Made by a program: the position numbers and the translations under genes. From positions 1-64,000 of the forward strand of contig NZ_LSNE01000007.1 in NCBI RefSeq assembly GCF_001565895.1: a DNA stretch of 64,000 nucleotides. Reading direction: 5' to 3'. This DNA is from Paraglaciecola hydrolytica (GTDB lineage Bacteria; Pseudomonadota; Gammaproteobacteria; Enterobacterales; Alteromonadaceae). The first letter of the stretch is position 1, and every line of letters begins with the position of its first letter. This document shows positions 1-28,787 of the stretch, in pieces. The notes under the pieces are model-generated. The model was not told the DNA's origin and made no database searches. It was given only the letters and a program-made list of their open reading frames with translations.

Positions 1-92
1 TGCTTAGAGGCGGCAGGAGGTATTAAATATGTGGATCAGTTTTCGATGCAAATTAGGGGGTAAAGTGGATCAGTTCTGGATGCAAATTAACA
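1..92. mobile_element. Terminal end of an IS21-like insertion sequence (partial)
   Basis: Two nearly identical 25-base direct copies lie at 31-55 and 65-89 (both start GTGGATCAGTT and end GATGCAAATTA), 34 bases apart. Multiple internal copies of a GTGGATCAGTT-type segment next to a terminal CA are typical of IS21-family ends. I place the boundary at the CA at 91-92, since the cas8/cas5-like reading frame starts to make sense just after it. The transposase genes and the other end are outside the window, so the family call is from end architecture only. Confidence 0.5.
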
Positions 93-700
93 AGCGATTT
101 GGATTAAAAGTTGATTTTCAGGAGTTTGCAATTTGCCTCCATAGCTACAGTTTTCACAAAAGAGGCATAACCAAAGAGCAATACTACACAATTAATGACG
201 TCCAAAAAATTCCTGGAATTGTTGATTCAAGGCAATGTGATTTTTTATTAAGTTTGTTAATAAAGGTTAATTATTTAGAGTTAGATAAGGAGCATATTTT
301 AGCCTGCCTCCCGCAAAAACTTTGTGGAGGGGCGGTCCATATTGGATTACCAAACCTATCTTCAGTTGACGTTTATAATGACTTTAAACACGCTGTGGAA
401 GCAATACCTCTTACAAAAGGGAAATGGCTAGCTATTGATGATTCAAATAACCCTTTTAATAACGTCTTTGACATGATGAGTAAAATTGAAAAAAGAGACG
501 ATCTCGTTGCAGGATGTGTTGGTTATCACTTTTTAGAATTGCCTGAAGATAAGATTGGATCACTGGACAACATTCAGCATGTTTTTGCTGAGCCAATTTT
601 AGCTGCGGTTCGCATGTCTAGTTTTGTGTTTGGCGATACCCATGAGAAGTTGATTTGGCAATATCAAAAAAACTCAACTAGTTTGTACTTAACTAATTAG
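29..700 (+). pseudogene. cas8f: cas8/cas5 fusion (Cascade large subunit), 3' fragment cut by an IS end
   Basis: In I-F3 transposons the Cas8-Cas5 fusion sits directly upstream of cas7 and recognises the PAM within the TniQ-Cascade complex. Here only about 200 C-terminal residues remain. The C-terminal stretch with GYHFLELP, then HVFAEPILAAVRM, is like the end of the Csy2/Cas5f part. The first 21 codons of the open frame (ATG at 29) are read out of the insertion-sequence end, so this ATG is not the native start. A CAST Cas8/5 is normally over 600 residues. The gene ends 14 bases before cas7 and shares its operon. The loss of the N-terminal part should disable target recognition unless an intact copy exists elsewhere. 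Identification rests mainly on position and C-terminal motifs. Confidence 0.7.
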
Positions 701-714
701 TAGGAGTTTTTTAT

Positions 715-1755
715 ATGAGGCTGCCAACAAAATTGAGTTATCAGCGTTCAATTTCTCCCAGCATGGCAGTGTTTTTTTCTGTAGATACAAATGGAAACCA
801 ATCTCCATTAGAAATCAGCACAGTGAAAGTATTGGGGCAAAAAGAGAGTGCTTCTGAAGGTTTTTCTGGAGGAATGGAGCTAAAAAAAGAAGTGAGTCAT
901 AAACGATTGGCTGAAGGTAATCCTCACACTATTGATTTTTGTTATGCGCCAGCAAATTCAACACATTTGCTTTGCAAGTTCTCCTGTACTGTCGATGCCA
1001 GTTCTTTGAAGCCAAGAGTGTGTAATAACGAGGAAGTAGAAAAGGCTTTAGTTGAATTTGTGCAAAATTATCAGAAGGTGGGTGGGTTCAGATATTTATC
1101 TGAACGGTACCTTAAAAATATTTTGAGTGGAAATTGGCTTTGGCGGAATCAAAAAACTCGGGACACAACTATTGAACTTAATACTTCTGGGGGGCATTCA
1201 ATAAACATCAGTGGCATTAACAGAAAACAATTTGAACCCGAATGGAATAAGGCAGTAACGCATTGGGATGACGTTGTGAACGAATTTGAAAATGCGCTCT
1301 GCTCACCACAAAAATACATGTTTTGTGAAGTCACTGCTAAGTTGACAGTGCCCATTGCTCACGAAATTTACCCTAGTCAAGCCTTTGTGGAAAAAGGTAG
1401 TAAGTTTGATAAAAGTCGAACTTATCAAGAAACTTACCTCGAACAAAAAAGAACCGCTATCATAGGGGCGTATAAAGTAGGTGCTGCAATTGCCAGTATT
1501 GATGATTGGTATGAAAATGCGGATTTAGCTGTGAGAGTTGGAAGCTTCGCAGTAGATAAGGAAAAAGATACTATTTATCGCCATCCAGTGACAAAAAAAG
1601 ACCTTTTTTCTCTGCTTAATATTATCGAAGACATTACTGGCAATCTGCGTTCTTGTTTTGGCAAATCCAAGGATAAATTAGTTAATTGTAAAGACGCTCA
1701 TTTTATTGCAGCGAATTTAATTAAAGGTGGTTTATTTGGAATGGGGTCCAAATAG
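715..1755 (+). CDS. cas7f: Cas7f (Csy3-type) Cascade backbone protein, CAST type I-F3
   Basis: Cas7 coats the crRNA spacer in six copies and forms the backbone of the TniQ-Cascade DNA-targeting complex. The 346-residue protein opens with RLPTKLSYQRSISPS, has GNPHTIDFC near residue 75, NILSGNWLWRN near 140, AAIASIDDWY near 260, IYRHP near 290 and ends with ANLIKGGLFGMG. These blocks match the CAST I-F3 Cas7 of Vibrio cholerae Tn6677 as I remember it, and length is normal for the family. A ribosome site (TAGGAG) lies about 8 bases before the ATG. It sits between the cas8/5 fragment and cas6 in one operon, with cas6 starting at the next base. No frameshift or stop interrupts it. Confidence 0.92.
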   Translation: MRLPTKLSYQRSISPSMAVFFSVDTNGNQSPLEISTVKVLGQKESASEGFSGGMELKKEVSHKRLAEGNPHTIDFCYAPANSTHLLCKFSCTVDASSLKPRVCNNEEVEKALVEFVQNYQKVGGFRYLSERYLKNILSGNWLWRNQKTRDTTIELNTSGGHSINISGINRKQFEPEWNKAVTHWDDVVNEFENALCSPQKYMFCEVTAKLTVPIAHEIYPSQAFVEKGSKFDKSRTYQETYLEQKRTAIIGAYKVGAAIASIDDWYENADLAVRVGSFAVDKEKDTIYRHPVTKKDLFSLLNIIEDITGNLRSCFGKSKDKLVNCKDAHFIAANLIKGGLFGMGSK

Positions 1756-2361
1756 TTGAACGCGCGTTACTACTTCAAGATTACTTTTTTACCTTTTGAT
1801 TGTAATTCGAGTTTTCTGATTGGGCGCTGCTTAAAAATCCTTCATGGGTTTAGCAAAAGAAATGAAATAAACGATATTGGTGTCACTTTTCCTGAATGGG
1901 ACGATAGCGGGCCAGGTAAAACTTTGGGGTTCGTCAGTGTTAGTTTAAGTCACTTAAATTTATTAATTGAGCAGCAATATTTTCTAGAAATGCAAAAATT
2001 AAAGTACTTTGATATTTCAGATATAAAGCAAATTTTAGGTACGACGCACCAGGAAGTTACTTTTATCCGCAATCAGGCGATTGACCAGATATCAGCTAAG
2101 TCGATACAAAGACAAATAAACCGATCTAAAAAAAGAGCTGAAAGTCGGGGGGATATATATAACCCCAAAGTAGAAACCAAGAAAAATCTGACTTTTCAGC
2201 TTTTCCATAAAATTCCGATGAGTAGTTCCAGTAGCGGTTTTAATTTTTCTTTAAGTATTCAGTGTGTAAAAATGGATGAGACATTGAATGATCGATTTTC
2301 TAGTTATGGGCTCTCGAATAAAACTAATTTTGTTAGTTCAGTTCCTAAGCATCTACCCTAA
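1756..2361 (+). CDS. cas6f: Cas6f (Csy4-type) crRNA-processing endoribonuclease, CAST type I-F3
   Basis: Cas6f cuts the CRISPR transcript 3' of the repeat hairpin and stays bound to the crRNA 3' handle. The 201-residue protein starts YYFKITFLP, carries LHGF with a candidate catalytic His at residue 30, an Arg/Lys-rich helix around residues 115-135 (RQINRSKKRAESRG) suited to gripping the repeat stem, and the family C-terminal block FSSYGLSN. I use the TTG at 1756, which directly follows the cas7 stop codon; no ATG fits the homologous N-terminus. Translation is probably coupled to cas7. The CRISPR array it would process begins about 125 bases downstream. Confidence 0.9.
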   Translation: MNARYYFKITFLPFDCNSSFLIGRCLKILHGFSKRNEINDIGVTFPEWDDSGPGKTLGFVSVSLSHLNLLIEQQYFLEMQKLKYFDISDIKQILGTTHQEVTFIRNQAIDQISAKSIQRQINRSKKRAESRGDIYNPKVETKKNLTFQLFHKIPMSSSSSGFNFSLSIQCVKMDETLNDRFSSYGLSNKTNFVSSVPKHLP

Positions 2362-2424
2362 TTTATTTCATGTTACCCAAGCTGTTGAATTACCTAAATA
2401 AATATTCAAATAAATTAAAAAGGT

Positions 2425-2484
2425 ATTTGACACTATTTAGTTTTAAACTATTGTATTAAATAGTGTTTTGTATATTTTGGTACT
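2425..2484 (+). promoter_or_regulatory. CRISPR leader with promoter and a 9-bp inverted repeat
   Basis: Between the cas6 stop and the first repeat is a TTGACA (2427-2432) with a TATTGT 16 bases later (2449-2454), a plausible sigma-70 promoter for the array. A perfect 9-bp inverted repeat, CACTATTTA (2431-2439) and TAAATAGTG (2457-2465), brackets the -10 region. This is the geometry of a repressor operator. I-F3 transposons are reported to carry an Xre-type regulator that controls guide expression; whether this repeat is its site is my inference. Confidence 0.5.
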
Positions 2485-2632
2485 GCTCTCTGCCGCATAG
2501 GCAGTTAATAACCATTTAATGGGTCTTCTAGCTCTTTCGCAATAGCTCTCTGCCGCATAGGCAGTTAAAAATTAGATGAATGAATGTCCTCACCATAACC
2601 CTGAAGTATCTGCCGAATAGGCAGTTTGAGCT
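2485..2632 (+). CRISPR. Three-repeat I-F type mini CRISPR array with a divergent last repeat
   Basis: Three 28-base repeats (2485-2512, 2545-2572, 2605-2632) are spaced exactly 60 bases apart, leaving two 32-base spacers (2513-2544 and 2573-2604). Repeats 1 and 2 share GCTCTCTGCCGCATAGGCAG with the I-F hairpin CTGCCG-CATA-GGCAG, then TTAAnAA. Repeat 3 differs (AGTAT before the hairpin, an A in the loop side, TTTGAGCT after it). In I-F3 transposons the terminal atypical repeat marks the private homing guide, so spacer 2 is the candidate. Neither spacer matches the sequence just outside the right end. Confidence 0.9.
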
Positions 2633-2800
2633 TCAACTGATGCTGGGAGCGAATTAGTAAAATAGGGCTTTTTGCTATGGACAATCTTGCATTATCAAAT
2701 ATTCCATGAAGATAGGTTAACTATGGCCGATTTTCTTTTTGAAAAACAAATTTGTAATTTTATTACATTACTACAAAATTCTATTCAAAGTAGACATATT

Positions 2801-2907
2801 AAATGACAAGATATGCTTGGTATTTATTGTGACACGATATGCTTGTAAATTACTTAAATCATTGATTTTTGTCTATTTAGTGATGACAAGATATGCTTGG
2901 ATCAACA
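2801..2907 (+). mobile_element. CAST right end: three TnsB-type repeats and terminal ATCAACA
   Basis: Three copies of TGACAmGATATGCTTG lie at about 2804-2819, 2830-2845 and 2884-2899. The last runs straight into GATCAACA, ending at 2907. Read from outside inwards the end is TGTTGATCCAAGCATATCTT, which carries the TGTTGAT terminus of Tn6677-like elements followed by a TnsB-binding repeat. Tn7-like elements bind TnsB to several such repeats at each end. The apparent open frame through this stretch (2739-2960) translates the repeats as TRYA twice and is not a gene. Confidence 0.82.
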
Positions 2908-2969
2908 GATTAAGAGATTTTCAAGATTTAGCTGCTACAAAAATTGCTACAGTGAAATAAGGAATACTT

Positions 2970-3254
2970 ATGCTTGCTGTAGCAAATTTTTCCCATCTTT
3001 ATTGTCGTAATAAACACTATTATCTTCGTTTAACTCTGTATCAAAAACAGCTTTGGATTAGTCTTAAAACAGACTCACTAGATTTAGCGGTCAATGTTCG
3101 CTCACCAATTAAACCTTTGTTATACAATGTATTAGTGTTCACTGAATTAAAAAGATACGCCGCGCGATGTGGTATTAGCTCTGTTGATAGCATAACGAGA
3201 CTTTGTAAAACATCGCAGATAGTTCGGTTTTTGTGTTGCCCTCCCTATATCTAA
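2970..3254 (+). pseudogene. Truncated integrase-like (tyrosine recombinase N-terminal) fragment
   Basis: The first 50 residues (HLYCRNKHYYLRLTLYQKQ, then WISLKTDSLDLA) look like the N-terminal, arm-binding part of phage or island integrases, which usually read xYxRxxxPxx-xxSLKTxxxxxA. The remaining 45 residues match nothing I know and no catalytic R-H-R-Y domain follows before the stop, so this is probably a remnant. It has a ribosome site (AAGGAA) 9 bases before the ATG. It begins 62 bases outside the transposon end. An imperfect inverted repeat (2937-2951 with 2977-2991) overlies its start. It could instead be a small unknown gene. Confidence 0.4.
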
Positions 3255-3412
3255 AGACACGTAATTCTTACAAGCTATGCAGTAAATCTTACGATTTTTA
3301 TCTCACTGACTATACTTAATATTCATTAAGTTATTGATATACATAATATATCAGTGGCTGGTCTGTAACTTGCTGCGTTTAATACACAATGTTTCAATAG
3401 CGGAGAAATACT

Positions 3413-4165
3413 ATGTATGCAGGTCTGAGAGATGTTAAGCGTTTTACCATTGCAGCCACTGATGGTGACATTGGTATTAGCAAAGATTTTTTGTTTGATG
3501 ATCGTGCATGGACAGTGAGATATATGTATGTGGATACCCATAAGTGGTTGCCTTTGGGGGAAAAGGTACTTATTTCACCCGTCTCTTTGCACAGCATTGA
3601 TATCAAAGATGAAAAAATTCATGTGACCTTGTCTAAAGAGCAAGTTGAAGATAGCCCATCGATTGATGAACACAAAACCGTTTCACGGGATTATGAAGCG
3701 CTTTATTTTCAGTATTTTGGTTATGGTTATTACTGGACAGGCCCAGGAGCTTGGGGCGAATTTGCTTACCCTACTGCGCTGGCTCAGGTGCAGACGCTGC
3801 CTGAACGAGCTGAACTTGAAAAAGTGGATACAGGATCTCAGGCTAATCATTTGCGTTCTATTAATGAATTGCAAGGTTACGAAGTGAAAGCCAAAGATGG
3901 AAACTTTGGTCAGGTTCACGATCTAATTCTGGATACCGAAAATTGGGAGATTCCGTTAATTGTCATTGATACTCATCAGATTTTGCCGGGTGGTAAAAAA
4001 GTTTTAGTGGCGCCTAAACACATTAACTCCATCAACTGGTTGGAAAAAAATGTGGGCTGCCATTTGAGTGTTGATGCCATTAAACATTGTCCTGAATACG
4101 ATCCAGAGCGCTTAAATGATAGCGTTTATCAGCAAAAAGTAAGACAGCAATTATTAGCCTTATAG
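3413..4165 (+). CDS. Tandem PRC-barrel domain protein
   Basis: The 250-residue product contains two PRC-barrel-like modules, roughly residues 5-75 and 145-215. Each has the pattern of a strand with DGDIGISKDFLFDD or DGNFGQVHDLILD followed by Y/V-IDTHxxLPxGxKVLxxP. PRC-barrels occur in RimM, photosynthetic reaction centre subunit H and many small stress-related proteins, where they bind RNA or partner proteins. A linker rich in Tyr, Gly and Trp (YFGYGYYWTGPGAWGE, about residues 100-115) separates them. There is no signal peptide, so it should be cytoplasmic. It is transcribed alone, with a ribosome site (GGAG) 8 bases before the ATG and a strong terminator after it. Molecular role unknown. Confidence 0.8.
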   Translation: MYAGLRDVKRFTIAATDGDIGISKDFLFDDRAWTVRYMYVDTHKWLPLGEKVLISPVSLHSIDIKDEKIHVTLSKEQVEDSPSIDEHKTVSRDYEALYFQYFGYGYYWTGPGAWGEFAYPTALAQVQTLPERAELEKVDTGSQANHLRSINELQGYEVKAKDGNFGQVHDLILDTENWEIPLIVIDTHQILPGGKKVLVAPKHINSINWLEKNVGCHLSVDAIKHCPEYDPERLNDSVYQQKVRQQLLAL

Positions 4166-4197
4166 TTATTAACGTTGTAGACGCTAAACTCAATATG

Positions 4198-4235
4198 CAG
4201 AGCAAAGTCAAATAAGTCACTTTGCTCTGTTTTTT
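4198..4235 (+). terminator. Rho-independent terminator of the PRC-barrel gene
   Basis: CAGAGCAAAGT (4198-4208) pairs perfectly with ACTTTGCTCTG (4219-4229), and a run of T follows (4230-4235). It lies 33 bases after the stop codon and separates this gene from acnA. Confidence 0.85.
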
Positions 4236-4295
4236 CGCAAGCAATAGTCGCTAAAAAATTGCCCAAGACGACAAGCACCAATACGGAGCCATGCC

Positions 4296-7031
4296 ATGCC
4301 TAATTCATCACCCTATCTACAAACACTGTCAGTTGACGGTAAAAACTATCAGTATTACAGCCTCGCGACGCTGGCGGGAGTTTATGATCTCTCGCGTTTA
4401 CCCTTTGCTGCTAAGTTACTATTAGAGAACTTGCTGCGCCATAGTGAGCAGCCCTTTGTTCAGCCTGATGATATTAGTACGCTCGCCAAATGGGATGTAT
4501 TAAACACCGTGGCAACAGAAATTGCCTTTGTGCCATCCCGCGTGGTTTTGCAAGATTTTACCGGTGTGCCGGCGGTTGTCGATCTCGCCGCAATGCGCGA
4601 TGCCATGGTGGCGCTGGGTGGCTCACCACAAAAAATTAACCCTTTAAAACCTGTTGAACTGGTAATTGACCATTCCGTGATGGTGGATTTTTTTGCACAA
4701 AAAGATGCTTTTAGTAAAAACACCGCAAAGGAAGTTGAGCGTAATAAAGAACGTTATCAATTTTTGCGTTGGGGGCAGAATGCTTTAGATAATTTTAAAG
4801 TAGTACCACCAGGTAAAGGCATAGTGCATCAGGTTAATTTGGAATATCTCGCCCGTGTGGTTTTTATTGACCCGCTGACACAAGGGAGCAGCAGTGCTGG
4901 CATGTTATACCCAGATACTCTAGTTGGGACCGATTCTCACACCACTATGATCAATGGTCTTGGTGTTTTGGGTTGGGGCGTAGGAGGTATCGAAGCCGAA
5001 GCTGCGATGTTAGGACAACCTGTGACAATGTTGATCCCTGAGGTAGTGGGCATGGAAATTACCGGTAATTTACCGGCCGGTACTACCGCGACAGATTTAG
5101 TGCTTACCATCACTGAAAAACTTCGTCAGTTTGGCGTGGTGGGTAAATTTGTTGAATTTTTTGGTGAAGGTATAAAACATCTGACCTTAGCGGATCGTGC
5201 CACTATCGCCAATATGGCGCCTGAGTATGGTGCGACGTGTGGTTTGTTTCCTTTGGACGAACAAACTGTGACCTACCTGAAATTGACCGGTAGGGATGAA
5301 CATCAAATTGAAGTGATCAAAGCTTATGCCCAAGCTCAGGGCATGTGGGGATCGGCAGCCCAGCAAACTGCGGCCTATCACGCCACCCTAAGTCTTAAAC
5401 TTAATGATGTGGTGAGTTCTATCGCAGGCCCTAAACGCCCTCAGGATCGCATCGCTTTAACAGACGCCGCCAGTCAGTTTAAACATTGGTTATCACAGCA
5501 AGAAAAATTGCTCATTGCTACCGACGACCCTGAAAAAGGCCGTTTCGAAAATGAAGGTGGCCAACAGACTTCGCCTAACGATGAGAAATCTTTACAAGCT
5601 TTATGTGATTATAACGGCCAGCAATTTAGTCTTAAAGACGGCGCAGTAGTCATTGCTGCCATCACCAGTTGTACTAATACTTCTAACCCATCGGTGTTAG
5701 TTGCTGCTGGTTTGGTGGCGAGAAAAGCGCGAGCGCTAGGTTTGTCCGTCAAACCTTGGGTTAAAACCAGTTTTGCGCCAGGTTCGCAAGTCGTGACTGA
5801 ATACCTTGATAAAGCCAAGCTAACAGACGACCTCGAAGCAATGGGGTTCCATCTGGTAGGTTACGGTTGTACGACCTGCATCGGTAATTCGGGCCCATTG
5901 CCCGAGCCAATAAGTAAGGCCATTCGCGCTGCTAAACTGAATGTGAGCGCGGTATTGTCGGGTAATCGTAATTTTGAAGGGCGTATTCACGCTGATGTCA
6001 AAGCTAATTACTTAGCCTCACCTCCCTTAGTGGTCGCTTATGCCTTGGCGGGCAACATGGATATTGATTTAGTTAATGAGCCTTTGGGTACCTCAAAAGA
6101 CGGTAAACCTGTATATATGCGTGATATCTGGCCAACTAACGACGAAATACAACAACTTGTTACTCAAGTGGTGAACAGTGAGATGTTCAGTGAACGTTAT
6201 GCCCATATATTTGAAGGTGACGAATGCTGGAATAGTTTGCAGGTTGTCGACAGTGCTCAATATAACTGGCCAGATTCAACTTACGTTAAAAAGCCGACGT
6301 TTTTTGCGGGCATGAGCTTAAAGCCTGAACCGCAAACGACGATTAAAGACGCCCGTTGTTTGCTTAAACTGGGTGATTCGGTGACCACTGATCACATTTC
6401 TCCTGCGGGCAGTATAGCCCCGGATGGCCCCGCTGCTGAGTATTTACGCGAACAGGGTGTTGAGGAACAAGACTTTAATTCTTTTGGTTCACGACGCGGT
6501 AACCATGAAGTCATGATGCGCGGTACCTTTGCCAATATCAGACTGAAAAATCAGTTGGCGCCCGGCACCGAAGGGGGCTGGACGCGTTTTCAACCTTCAG
6601 GCGAACAGATGAGCGTATTTGCGGCTGCGATGGAATATCAGCGGCAGAATATCCCTTGTATTGTTATCGCGGGTAAAGAATATGGCACAGGCAGTTCTCG
6701 GGATTGGGCAGCTAAAGGGCCTTTATTACTGGGGGTAAAAGTGGTGCTGGCAGAAAGTTACGAACGTATCCATCGTTCCAATTTAATTGGCATGGGGATT
6801 TTGCCCTTACAATTTAACAGTGGTCAAAATGCTGCGAGCTTGAAACTGGATGGTACTGAACAATACACCATAGAGCCAATCATTCTGGGGCAACAAGAGG
6901 TTGAGGTGAGTGTGAAAAAAGACCGCGCCAGGTTTAACTTTAAGGCGCGGATCAGAATCGATACCCCCAATGAGTTTAGCTATTTCAGCCATGGTGGGAT
7001 CTTGCAATATGTGCTGCGCAGCCTGAACTAA
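4296..7031 (+). CDS. acnA: Aconitate hydratase A
   Basis: Interconverts citrate and isocitrate through cis-aconitate in the TCA and glyoxylate cycles, in the cytosol. At 911 residues it is the AcnA/IRP1-type monomer. The three cysteines that hold the 4Fe-4S cluster are C459 (in TSCTNTSNP), C525 and C528 (in GCTTCIGNSG), with the same 66-residue spacing as in E. coli AcnA. VGTDSHTTMINGLGVLGWG and the swivelling C-terminal domain with GTGSSRDWAAKGP complete the active site. It stands alone between the PRC-barrel gene and a convergent glycosidase; no prp genes are next to it, so a role in the methylcitrate cycle is not indicated. Intact. Confidence 0.97.
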   Translation: MPNSSPYLQTLSVDGKNYQYYSLATLAGVYDLSRLPFAAKLLLENLLRHSEQPFVQPDDISTLAKWDVLNTVATEIAFVPSRVVLQDFTGVPAVVDLAAMRDAMVALGGSPQKINPLKPVELVIDHSVMVDFFAQKDAFSKNTAKEVERNKERYQFLRWGQNALDNFKVVPPGKGIVHQVNLEYLARVVFIDPLTQGSSSAGMLYPDTLVGTDSHTTMINGLGVLGWGVGGIEAEAAMLGQPVTMLIPEVVGMEITGNLPAGTTATDLVLTITEKLRQFGVVGKFVEFFGEGIKHLTLADRATIANMAPEYGATCGLFPLDEQTVTYLKLTGRDEHQIEVIKAYAQAQGMWGSAAQQTAAYHATLSLKLNDVVSSIAGPKRPQDRIALTDAASQFKHWLSQQEKLLIATDDPEKGRFENEGGQQTSPNDEKSLQALCDYNGQQFSLKDGAVVIAAITSCTNTSNPSVLVAAGLVARKARALGLSVKPWVKTSFAPGSQVVTEYLDKAKLTDDLEAMGFHLVGYGCTTCIGNSGPLPEPISKAIRAAKLNVSAVLSGNRNFEGRIHADVKANYLASPPLVVAYALAGNMDIDLVNEPLGTSKDGKPVYMRDIWPTNDEIQQLVTQVVNSEMFSERYAHIFEGDECWNSLQVVDSAQYNWPDSTYVKKPTFFAGMSLKPEPQTTIKDARCLLKLGDSVTTDHISPAGSIAPDGPAAEYLREQGVEEQDFNSFGSRRGNHEVMMRGTFANIRLKNQLAPGTEGGWTRFQPSGEQMSVFAAAMEYQRQNIPCIVIAGKEYGTGSSRDWAAKGPLLLGVKVVLAESYERIHRSNLIGMGILPLQFNSGQNAASLKLDGTEQYTIEPIILGQQEVEVSVKKDRARFNFKARIRIDTPNEFSYFSHGGILQYVLRSLN

Positions 7032-7065
7032 GGCATACATTAAACTCGTTTTTGTTGGGTGCGTT

Positions 7066-8088
7066 TTAATTGTCCGTGTTTTCTAAGTGGGTGATGCGGC
7101 TGTTTAACTCAGCCGGATCAACCACCGGCCAGCCTTTATCCCAGCTCATAGGCAAAATACGTAACTTTTGAATACCCTTGTCGGCAGCTTCGTAGGCATG
7201 TAATACCAAGTAGACCTGACCATCAAAGCTATAAGCTGCGTTATGACCTAAGCCAGGCCAGTCTTTATTGCCTTGCATGACAAGACTACCGCCACCTTTC
7301 ATCAAGTCTTTACCGTCTTTGTCTAGATAGGGACCGCCAACTGATTTAGCGCGCCCGACTCTGACGTTGTAGTCGCTGCTGGCGCCGCGACAACATTTAT
7401 CAAAGGAGACAAATAGATAGTAATAATTGTTTTTGTGGAAAATAAAAGGCGCTTCGATAGCACCGTTTTTGTCGCCTTCTATGCTTGCATCCGGATTACG
7501 CGGGCGAGCGGCTATGCTGTGCCATTCTTGAGGCTGAGCTAAACGAGTCAGATCATCGTCTAATTTGACTAATTTTAGCCCGGCCCAGAACGAACCAAAA
7601 CTCATCCAATATTGCTTGTTTTCATCTTGGATAATGGCAGGATCAATGGCGTTCCAGTCATCACGCTCGGGTACCGACTGGAGAACAATGCCCTGATCTA
7701 CCCATAGATAATCTTGAGACTTTGGATCCAAAGTCTTATTAACCGTGACACCGATAGCCGAAGTATTTTTACCAAAGGCCGAAACGGAATAATACAGATA
7801 GAATTTGCCGTCTTTTTGAATAATATCCGGCGCCCATAAATGCCCACTAAAACCTGGGGCGATGCGCTGCGCCCAACTTGGTTCGTCTTTAAATACCCGC
7901 CCGGCTAATTGCCAGTTGACCATATCTTTGGATTGATAATAAGTAATACCGGGGCCAGTGCTGAACACATAATAGGTATCACCCTCTTTAGCCATGACCG
8001 GATCATGCACTTCTACTTGTTTAGCTTGAGCGAAGTTAAGCAATAAACAAACGCTGCTTATAAATAAAGTGATGTAACACTTGGTCAT
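7066..8088 (-). CDS. Secreted GH43 endo-1,5-alpha-L-arabinanase
   Basis: Glycoside hydrolase family 43, most like endo-arabinanases that cut the alpha-1,5 backbone of arabinan. The 340-residue protein starts with a signal peptide (about residues 1-22, ending NFAQA) and so works outside the inner membrane. The five-bladed propeller catalytic residues are visible: general base D29 (EVHDPVMA), the pKa-tuning Asp in NAIDPAII near residue 135, and the general acid Glu in GAIEAPFIF near residue 210. HLWAPDI is a further family block. It is divergent from the exo-acting GH43 at 8354, and a TTGTAATACAA operator lies 46 bases upstream of its start. Substrate (arabinan rather than xylan) is inferred from sequence type and neighbours. 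Confidence 0.85.
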   Translation of the reverse strand: MTKCYITLFISSVCLLLNFAQAKQVEVHDPVMAKEGDTYYVFSTGPGITYYQSKDMVNWQLAGRVFKDEPSWAQRIAPGFSGHLWAPDIIQKDGKFYLYYSVSAFGKNTSAIGVTVNKTLDPKSQDYLWVDQGIVLQSVPERDDWNAIDPAIIQDENKQYWMSFGSFWAGLKLVKLDDDLTRLAQPQEWHSIAARPRNPDASIEGDKNGAIEAPFIFHKNNYYYLFVSFDKCCRGASSDYNVRVGRAKSVGGPYLDKDGKDLMKGGGSLVMQGNKDWPGLGHNAAYSFDGQVYLVLHAYEAADKGIQKLRILPMSWDKGWPVVDPAELNSRITHLENTDN

Positions 8089-8134
8089 GTAAAAATCCTG
8101 CTAATGATCAATTTTATCCCTTATGCTAGCATAA

Positions 8135-8145
8135 TTGTAATACAA
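8135..8145. promoter_or_regulatory. Palindromic operator for the GntR regulator (site 1)
   Basis: TTGTAATACAA is a perfect odd palindrome in the divergent space between the two GH43 genes. The same motif recurs before the SSS symporter and the TSUP gene. FadR-subfamily GntR proteins bind short palindromes of this type, and one is encoded nearby at 11445. Assignment is by co-occurrence. Confidence 0.55.
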
Positions 8146-8167
8146 TATTAACAATGAATTATTGATG

Positions 8168-8309
8168 TATACTCAAAATCATTGGAATTGCGCGGCGGCG
8201 GCAAATGAATTCAACCCGATGAGCTTAGCCCTACTAAGTGCAATACGGTTGGCGAATGTGGTGAATGAGAGCAGCCAACAAGCACGCAACTTTAAGGATG
8301 AAGGGTATA
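8168..8309 (+). repeat. Dispersed MITE-like repeat, copy 1
   Basis: About 142 bases starting TATACTC and ending GGGTATA, so the termini are imperfect inverted repeats. It contains ATTGGAATTGCGCGGCGGCGG and GCAGCCAACAA. A second, reverse-oriented copy sits at 36187-36325 and shares these blocks in the same order, with variation in the middle. No gene is encoded. Its size and structure suit a non-autonomous element or a REP/ERIC-like unit. Confidence 0.7.
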
Positions 8310-8353
8310 TTTAATGTGTATCTGCCACAAGAATACAACGGAGTCCTGGCCTT

Positions 8354-9412
8354 ATGCCTGAGTTAAAAATGAACACAATATTTAAACATTCACTGCTGAG
8401 TATTACTCTGCTGAATATTTTTAGCACATCAGTATTAGCTCAGAGTTTAACTGAGCTTACTCAGCCAGCAAGCCACCTAAATATTGATAACCCAATCGTA
8501 TTACAACGGGCAGATCCTTGGATTATTAAAGATCCAAAAACTGGCTGTTATCAATTTATTGGTACTTCTCCTTTGTTTGATCAAATTGAAATCCGCAGTG
8601 CCTGTCGGATCAACGATCTTAAGTTGGCCGAATCTAAAGTTATTTGGCAAAAACATTCAAGCGGCAATATGGGCGCGCATATTTGGGCACCTGAGTTGCA
8701 CTATTTTAACGATAGCTGGTACATCTATTTTGCCGCAGGAGAGGTTGAAGATCCCTGGCGCATCCGTATGTATGTATTAGCCAATACGAATACCGATCCC
8801 GCACAGGGTGAATGGCAGGAGTTAGGCCAAATACTGACGCCGACTGACAGTTTTTCACTGGATGCCACTACCTTTGAACACCAAGGAAAGCGCTATTTGA
8901 TTTGGGCACAAATGAACGAACCCCGCACGTATAACTCAGCTTTGTTGATGGCACAGATGAATAGCCCAACCAGTATTACTGGTCCAATAATGACTTTAAC
9001 TGAGCCTACTTTAGACTGGGAAATGCAAGGTTATAAAGTCAATGAAGGTGCTGCGGTGCTCATTCGGCACGGTAAAGTATTTGTAACCTATTCAGGTGCC
9101 GCCACTGACGAACGTTATGCCATGGGGTTGTTATGGGCTGATGCTAACAGCGATTTAATGGACGCAAAAAACTGGCATAAATCAGCGGAGCCGGTATTCA
9201 GTACCAAAGCGGATATTGGCCGTTTTGGCCCCGGTCATAATAGCTTTTCCGTTGCTGAGGATGGTGTTACCGACTTGTTGATTTACCACAGTCGAGACTA
9301 TCTGAAGTTACAGGGTAGTCCTTTGAGTGATCCTAATCGCCATGCTCGTGCGCGACCTATTTACTGGGACGCACAAGGATTTCCGTTATTTATGAATGAG
9401 TTAGCTGATTAG
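8354..9412 (+). CDS. Secreted GH43 exo-alpha-1,5-L-arabinofuranosidase-like enzyme
   Basis: Family 43 hydrolase of 352 residues, nearest to the exo-acting arabinofuranosidases that release arabinose from the ends of arabino-oligosaccharides. Signal peptide at about residues 10-30 (hydrophobic stretch, then SVLAQ). Catalytic residues fit: base Asp in QRADPWII, second Asp in SLDATTF, general acid Glu in VNEGAAVLI; HIWAPELHY is the family block after the first blade. A ribosome site (GGAG) lies 10 bases before the ATG used; a start at the internal ATG at 8369 would also keep the signal peptide. It pairs with the divergent endo-enzyme, and a bidirectional terminator separates it from the convergent symporter. 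Confidence 0.82.
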   Translation: MPELKMNTIFKHSLLSITLLNIFSTSVLAQSLTELTQPASHLNIDNPIVLQRADPWIIKDPKTGCYQFIGTSPLFDQIEIRSACRINDLKLAESKVIWQKHSSGNMGAHIWAPELHYFNDSWYIYFAAGEVEDPWRIRMYVLANTNTDPAQGEWQELGQILTPTDSFSLDATTFEHQGKRYLIWAQMNEPRTYNSALLMAQMNSPTSITGPIMTLTEPTLDWEMQGYKVNEGAAVLIRHGKVFVTYSGAATDERYAMGLLWADANSDLMDAKNWHKSAEPVFSTKADIGRFGPGHNSFSVAEDGVTDLLIYHSRDYLKLQGSPLSDPNRHARARPIYWDAQGFPLFMNELAD

Positions 9413-28605: not shown

Positions 28606-28787
28606 GTGCCTCCCAAAATCCCGCTGTTCAGTGTAAGCCCGTGAACCGAAAGTTCAGGGCGGAAGTATCATCACTACCGTAGGCTTCTCGATACGGGTCG
28701 AGCCTGCACAATAGTAATGGAATCAACTTCCAGGTTGTAAAGCATCGGCCAGGGACATAACTAAACTGGCAAAGACTCCAGGAGGCA
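28606..28787 (-). ncRNA. ssrS: 6S RNA
   Basis: Read on the minus strand, the 182-base RNA starts TGCCTCC and ends GGGAGGCA, giving the closing stem. It contains the hallmark GGCTCGACCCGTATCGAGAAG-like hairpin (compare GCTCGGTCCGTCCGAGAAG in E. coli) and, towards the 3' side, CCCTGAACTTTCGGTTCACGGG. These are the conserved arms of gammaproteobacterial 6S RNA, which mimics an open promoter and binds sigma-70 RNA polymerase in stationary phase. A T-rich stretch follows the 3' end. It is divergent from ygfB, as in many Gammaproteobacteria. Ends are approximate by several bases. Confidence 0.88.

Follow-up and report, generated by a model that had tools for sequence, protein, structure and literature searches.

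A probable type I-F3 CRISPR-associated transposon remnant behind rnpB in Paraglaciecola hydrolytica

Contig C7 (NZ_LSNE01000007.1) of Paraglaciecola hydrolytica (assembly GCF_001565895.1; 5.22 Mb in 20 contigs, rated 100% complete) starts with cas genes, a CRISPR array, and a transposon end. We analyzed the first 64,000 nucleotides of this contig (the window), so that base 1 of the window is base 1 of C7. The Cas set is of the type I-F3 kind: cas7 and cas6 are intact, and just the C-terminal part of a cas8/5 fusion remains (Table 1). This part matches the Cas85f profile of PADLOC (2.1e-55, profile positions 417-625 of 631) and is 45% identical to residues 434-643 of the 647-amino-acid Cas8/5 of L092, with the first 10 aligned residues being derived from the insertion sequence (IS) that cuts the gene. 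L092, from an uncultured Alteromonadaceae bacterium, and L093, from Aliiglaciecola sp. M165, are the most closely related type I-F3 CRISPR-associated transposons (CASTs). Among solved structures, Cas7f is most similar to 7u5d (230.5 bits) and 6v9q (224.7 bits), versus only 68.9 bits for the Csy3 structures 5uz9 and 5xlo; the best matches of Cas6f are 9gs9, 30ga, and 6v9q. The array has three hairpin repeats at an exact 60-bp spacing (hairpins at 2490, 2550, and 2610) and two 32-nt spacers. Beyond it lie three exact copies of the TnsB-type site GACANGATATGCTTG. When up to 3 mismatches are allowed, this site is no rarer than chance in the window (5 found versus 6.21 expected), but the three exact sites are clustered, and their offsets from the terminus (9, 63, and 89) recur in both relatives.

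An earlier note on this DNA had reported Cas7f, Cas6f, the three-repeat array, three TnsB-type sites, and an ATCAACA terminus, and had proposed an origin in a type I-F3 CAST. Profiles and exact sites confirm every one of these features and support that origin. Cas7 and Cas6 also pass the general Csy3 and Csy4 models, as might be expected of an ordinary type I-F1 defense locus that was cut by the contig edge. We consider that scarcely credible: the Cas8/5 fusion is of the sort found in CASTs, Cas7 groups with I-F3 rows in a tree in which three I-F1 rows are separate, and the locus is bounded by two transposon ends and a duplication. By eye, no cas1, cas2, or cas3 was noticed among the open reading frames (ORFs) of window 1-9000, where no profile search for them was made. 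Nor did we see an ordinary I-F locus without a matching end, which would speak against a CAST; cas1 and cas3 were not searched for across the genome.

The opposite end of the element is on another contig, C3. The 23-bp terminus of the window has a single other mismatch-free match in the genome, which is inverted, at C3:1104421-1104443. A search of the genome with up to 3 mismatches gave six places: the window end and the C3 end, which are exact, and four places with 3 mismatches each, of which one adjoins the C3 end and three are on C5 and C20. The three TnsB-type sites of the C3 end are compactly arranged (offsets of 9, 30, and 53 bp from the terminus), in contrast to the spaced layout in the window. 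Beside the C3 terminus is TAATC, which complements the GATTA beside the window terminus, so that the two make up one 5-bp duplication. An inverted end flanked by GATTA had been predicted, and this is it. By convention, the right end is the one that lies upstream of the tns genes (PMC11406308), and therefore the C3 end is the right end and the window holds the left end, not the right-hand half that the earlier note described.

Moving inward from the right end, one reaches 41 residual codons of tnsA and then an IS21-family copy that runs from C3:1104201 down to 1101745. The encoded 41-amino-acid fragment shares 75.6% identity with TnsA of L092 and L093, and it matches 13 of 20 TnsA loci of other genomes (E values of 7e-20 to 8e-7). 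Against the two other TnsA loci of its own genome, it gave an E value of 1.5 for one and no match for the other.

The right end is located downstream of rnpB, the gene for RNase P RNA (Rfam RF00010, 5e-108, L144 9474-9842), at a distance of 30 bp from its 3' end, and spacer 2 matches this gene. The target of spacer 2 is on the rnpB strand at C3:1104493-1104524, with CC as the protospacer adjacent motif (PAM); the duplication is 44 bp away and the right end 49 bp away. The match is 23/32, perfect at positions 1-11, with mismatches at 12, 15, 18, 19, 20, 21, 24, 30, and 32. Type I-F Cascade does not read every sixth base; without these positions, 22/27 match. Searching the genome with both spacers at up to 3 mismatches had recovered the array alone, as the rnpB target is beyond that limit, and the target was noticed once the opposite end had been located and its flank was read. 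Spacer 1 has no target in its own genome (up to 3 mismatches; array only) or in viral contigs, and against plasmids and phages it gave weak partial matches only (8 plasmid and 2 phage records, E values of 3 to 9).

Could the match to rnpB be a coincidence, with the insertion due to a guide or selector that has since been lost? Nine mismatches in 32 are many, and five of the nine (15, 19, 20, 21, and 32) are at positions that Cascade reads. Yet a perfect run at positions 1-11, a CC PAM, and the exact I-F3 spacing come together here, and the binomial chance of the guide match, with 7 offsets allowed, is about 8e-9. None of 2,000 shuffles of spacer 2 matched at more than 19 read positions anywhere in 281 bp, with both strands included, and the best for spacer 1 was 13. 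Also, the guides of L092 and L093 carry similar mismatch loads at their own sites. We regard coincidence as highly improbable.

These two relatives served as controls. Their right ends were reached via TnsA (L178 and L179), and each element is flanked on both sides by its own duplication (GGGTA and CCCAC). The terminal guide of each fits the 3' end of a gene that looks by eye like a hotdog-thioesterase gene (25/32 and 23/32, with CA and CG as the PAM), and their right ends are 51 and 50 bp from the guide target. Pooled over the three elements, mismatches occur at 11/15 sixth positions versus 14/81 others (P = 3.5e-5). Taken singly, P is 0.015 for the window element and 0.057 and 0.015 for L092 and L093, which are not independent of each other. 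When eight guides were compared with the flanks of 21 TnsA loci, 20 read positions were reached only by those of L057, L092, and L093, either at the guide's own site or at that of another of the three. The guides of L053, L095, L099, and L100 had no match at their own flanks; their true homing spacer probably lies beyond the recognized repeats.

Spacer 2 also fits the rnpB genes of other bacteria. We found an rnpB match in all but one of 22 genomes of the genus. Of these 21 loci (including that of P. hydrolytica), 13 match spacer 2 at 21-24 of the 27 read positions with a CC PAM, and 8 match at 16-17 of 27. E. coli rnpB matches at 24/27 read positions (25/32, CC). Because 13 of the 21 loci and E. 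coli match well, the guide fits the conserved rnpB generally. Congener G522 and E. coli reach 24 read positions and two further congeners reach 23, as against 22 in the element's own host; the slightly better fit to foreign rnpB would be consistent with arrival from elsewhere. We also searched 395 genomes of the family for the end of the repeat joined to the rnpB seed, and three matched: the match is exact in P. hydrolytica and has 2 mismatches in both G438 and G707. No CRISPR hairpins were found close to the pattern match in G438 or G707.

The element is likely to be the remnant of a type I-F3 CAST that homed behind rnpB and later lost its machinery through a deletion linked to IS21. By this account, an I-F3a-like CAST would have arrived in the chromosome through RNA-guided homing: the terminal CRISPR RNA (spacer 2) would have paired with a protospacer close to the 3' end of rnpB, and the transposase would have placed the element 49 bp downstream with its right end facing the target, duplicating GATTA and leaving rnpB whole. 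Later, IS21-family sequence may have become fixed in both cas8/5 and tnsA (past codon 41). Anchored at this sequence, a deletion would then have taken the rest of tnsA together with tnsB, tnsC, the cargo, tniQ, and, on the N-terminal side, two thirds of cas8/5. A single such deletion would join C3 to C7, for a present layout of right end-tnsA'-IS21-'cas8/5-cas7-cas6-array-left end. The simplest account of this state is an IS21-anchored deletion by which tnsA' and 'cas8/5 became fused. Most likely, then, the remnant is immobile and IS21-deleted. Alone it would be unable to move or to target, and a related TnsB would, from the look of both ends, still recognize them. As only 41 codons of tnsA are left and no other TnsA in the assembly fits (tnsB and tnsC were not searched for separately), we file the element as a remnant of an I-F3 CAST and not as a working member.

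The missing tniQ and the rest of tnsA and of cas8/5 did not turn up elsewhere in the assembly. The earlier note had expected the cargo and tnsABC/tniQ to the left; they were not found, and the window begins at the contig edge, inside the IS21 copy that truncates cas8/5. Because base 1 of the window is base 1 of C7, extension to the left is impossible. Within the 5.2-Mb assembly there is one Cas8/5 match, and it does not supply the missing part. There are two TnsA matches, neither of which fits. Three TniQ matches exist, none of them beside cas genes, and two of the three are distant from I-F3 TniQ; the TniQ profile detects 4/4 I-F3 TniQ proteins. Hence the suggestion that this is half of a complete CAST holds up in part: the element is CAST-derived and has a matching end, but the opposite end keeps 41 tnsA codons, and no missing genes were found as far as we searched.

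A whole CAST with two IS21 insertions, whose interior, from tnsABC and the cargo to tniQ and the N-terminal part of cas8/5, is in the cell but is absent from the draft assembly or unrecognized in it, would be another explanation, and one in which tnsA and cas8/5 would be broken anyway. The assembly does break at the IS21 repeat, leaving 20 contigs, and tnsB and tnsC were not searched for. Still, a single-copy interior should assemble, and the completeness rating leaves little room for it; with no I-F3-like TniQ by cas genes, no N-terminal part of Cas8/5, and no other fitting TnsA, we find a split CAST unlikely. Whichever assembly join is true, both tnsA and cas8/5 are cut.

The IS21-family copy is 2,457 bp long, with ends TGTTAATT/AATTAACA; it encodes IstB (PF01695, 5.4e-79) and has a Mu-type C-terminal domain in the position of istA. 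It appears to share the istA/istB pair with the IS21 family but differs in that no target duplication could be paired among the copies here. Four right and three left ends of it were seen in the assembly. Its right end (window 15-31) carries AGGAGG, 8 bases, and an ATG facing outward, which gives in-frame fusions into cas8/5 and, on C3 (L144 6808 downwards), into an integrase gene. In the window, the predicted ORF 29-700 starts with the ATG at 29, within the IS, and continues in frame into cas8/5. At the start of C20 (L035 91-5912), an IS21 end abuts what appears by eye to be the end of hsdS, near DarT-DarG and the type I restriction gene hsdR.

Several observations weigh against the account of a homed and deleted remnant. 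First, when the 3 left and 4 right IS21 flanks were paired in all 12 ways, no pair had a 4-8 bp duplication in common, which leaves room for more rearrangement or for a wrong join at the repeat. Second, the C3-C7 join is not in the assembly: the IS copy beside tnsA' on C3 continues into a tRNA-linked integrase gene near mutY. Third, the search for missing genes covered TnsA, TniQ, and Cas8/5 but not tnsB or tnsC separately, and the comparison with I-F3 TniQ covered two of the three TniQ, the third being a TnsD by Pfam. Fourth, the PRC-barrel gene that follows the element is about 604 kb (G479) and 727 kb (G502) from rnpB in two congeners that have both on one contig, and therefore another rearrangement lies to the right of the element. 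Fifth, an empty site was matched in just 1 of 21 rnpB loci (G522, 37 bp; that genome is 94% complete and 9% contaminated). The five guide mismatches at read positions belong here too.

On the other hand, in G522 rnpB is followed by the sequence that flanks the window's left end, without a CAST (37 bp at 94.6%); the alignment scores 117, versus at most 84 in 300 shuffles. None of the 20 congener rnpB loci contain the right-end terminus. A tblastn search with mutY, yggX, rsmC, and the C3 integrase found no match in either the 20 rnpB loci of congeners or 5 PRC-barrel loci, so synteny settles neither assembly join. The 94-amino-acid ORF in the flank resembles the start of an integrase by eye (Pfam gave only 0.27). 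In window 2970-3412, it stops abruptly ahead of the PRC-barrel gene, which marks a further rearrangement breakpoint beside the element.

Table 1. Features of the window around the transposon remnant (coordinates are window positions).
Feature	Position	Strand	Details
IS21-family element, right end	1..92		cuts cas8/5; complete copy elsewhere is C3:1101745-1104201
cas8/5, C-terminal remnant	93..697 (to 700 with stop)	+	about 201 codons left
cas7 (Csy3 family, I-F3 type)	715..1755	+	Pfam Cas_Csy3 5.8e-64; TIGR02566 above cut-off
cas6 (Csy4 family), TTG start	1756..2361	+	TIGR02563 2.3e-27
CRISPR repeat 1	2485..2512	+	
Spacer 1	2513..2544	+	
CRISPR repeat 2	2545..2572	+	
Spacer 2, putative homing guide for rnpB	2573..2604	+	23/32; 22/27 read positions; CC PAM
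CRISPR repeat 3, terminal, degenerate (atypical)	2605..2632	+	
TnsB-type site L3	2805..2819	+	exact GACANGATATGCTTG
TnsB-type site L2	2831..2845	+	exact GACANGATATGCTTG
IHF consensus WATCARNNNNTTR	2855..2867	-	between L1 and L2; offset 41, equal in L092 and L093
TnsB-type site L1	2885..2899	+	exact GACANGATATGCTTG
Left-end terminal 8 bp, GATCAACA	2900..2907	+	ATCAACA terminus at 2907
Target-site duplication GATTA	2908..2912		pairs with TAATC beside right end, L144 9444-9448
Chromosomal flank	2913..3254	+	sequence following rnpB in congener G522, then 94-amino-acid ORF
6S RNA	28606..28787	-	Rfam RF00013, 9.9e-19

Parts of three Tn7-like elements are present in this genome. Contig C17 (L004 12147-19864 and L005 1-2779) has tnsA, tnsB, a tnsC of 516 amino acids, a TniQ, and a TnsD by Pfam. 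Beside this set is a cassette with a reverse transcriptase (PADLOC RT_II-A, 1.4e-208), an NDT_II-A-like protein (6e-67), and a metallo-beta-lactamase-fold protein (LmuA, 2e-60). C17, like C7, starts at an IS21 end (a left end), and it has tnsA, tnsB, tnsC, and two TniQ-family genes, so we asked whether C17 and C7 might be one transposon. This is very improbable: C17 has no GACANGATATGCTTG site with fewer than 3 mismatches, its TnsA is unlike the I-F3 fragment, its TniQ is distant from I-F3 TniQ, and the partner end with the matching duplication sits on C3. The comparisons of end sites, TnsA, and TniQ thus rule out C17 as the missing half. A second Tn7-like set, at C3:111333-116204 (L006 11334-16205), encodes tnsA-like (205 amino acids), transposase-like (640), ATPase-like (310), and TniQ (471) proteins; the comparison of TnsA and TniQ rules it out as the source of the tns genes.

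Among known elements, L092 and L093 share with the window element a 62% identical Cas7, the start of TnsA, the left-end site and IHF offsets, a similar compact right end, an atypical terminal repeat, and a spacing of 49-51 bp. They differ in that they keep tniQ and a full-length cas8/5 (tniQ-cas8/5-cas7-cas6-array), and their guide targets the thioesterase-like gene instead of rnpB. We built a tree of Cas7 with 39 rows; L111 was dropped (in-frame stop), and L063, L069, and L102 were not given. The window element, L092, and L093 form a group (99/95), which is nested in a larger one of 22 rows (96/95) together with the elements at guaC (labels by eye); three I-F1 rows stand apart. As it shares the larger group with guaC-homing elements, the window element would be I-F3a-like. 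The order cas8/5-cas7-cas6-array is also that of Tn6677 (VchCAST, I-F3a). VchCAST has three TnsB sites per end, IHF acts between L1 and L2, and insertion occurs 46-52 bp from the target (PMC10201428); the window element agrees in its IHF consensus between L1 and L2, in having three sites per end, and in its distance of 49 bp. It differs from the kin of Tn6677, in which I-F3a elements home at guaC and yciA (PMC11406308), in its rnpB site and in lacking tniQ and most of tnsA and cas8/5. The I-F3b CASTs that home at ffs, the gene for the signal recognition particle RNA, resemble it in that a guide next to a diverged repeat is directed at a conserved gene for a structured RNA (PMC11406308). They use another RNA gene, though, and Cas7 places the window element with the guaC elements and not with the rows that have ffs-like spacers (labels by eye).

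The kind of element is already known; rnpB appears to be new as a homing site. Of I-F3 homing, 94% is at yciA, ffs, guaC, and rsmJ (PMC12774636); cobO and ParM/StbA-family genes are further homing genes (PMC12452197), and parE is targeted through a TniQ (PMC11406308). We found no mention of rnpB or RNase P as a CAST or Tn7 site in the literature we consulted, including the parts available to us of PMC11406308, PMC12774636, PMC12452197, and PMC8649781; the original I-F3 and CAST surveys or supplementary tables may mention it. The rnpB passages of PMC9938897 deal with a quantitative PCR control. By eye, the genes beside the other right ends are guaC (L173, L176, and L182), rsmJ (L177), folE (L174), and oadB (L181 and L184). 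The folE and oadB genes, at I-F3-type TnsA loci L174, L181, and L184, are candidate homing genes outside the published list of four. Given these varied neighbors, there are more than four homing sites, and rnpB would be among the rarer ones.

We lean, somewhat cautiously, toward the view that an I-F3 lineage adopted rnpB as its chromosomal homing site. Its guide would be kept mainly at the positions that Cascade reads (12, 18, 24, and 30 have all drifted) and would match rnpB no worse in distant hosts than in its own host, which would make rnpB a near-universal landing site in the Gammaproteobacteria; as both ends are kept, a related TnsB could mobilize the remnant in trans. The locus also suggests a route of decay, in which an IS21-family element strips the machinery while the ends, the array, and the guide stay, and it cautions against tallying half-elements found at contig edges as complete CASTs. 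For the I-F3 CASTs, rnpB would be a further structured-RNA homing gene. Because rnpB is universal and highly conserved, one guide would work in very different hosts, which bears on the host range of these transposons and on the choice of safe landing sites.

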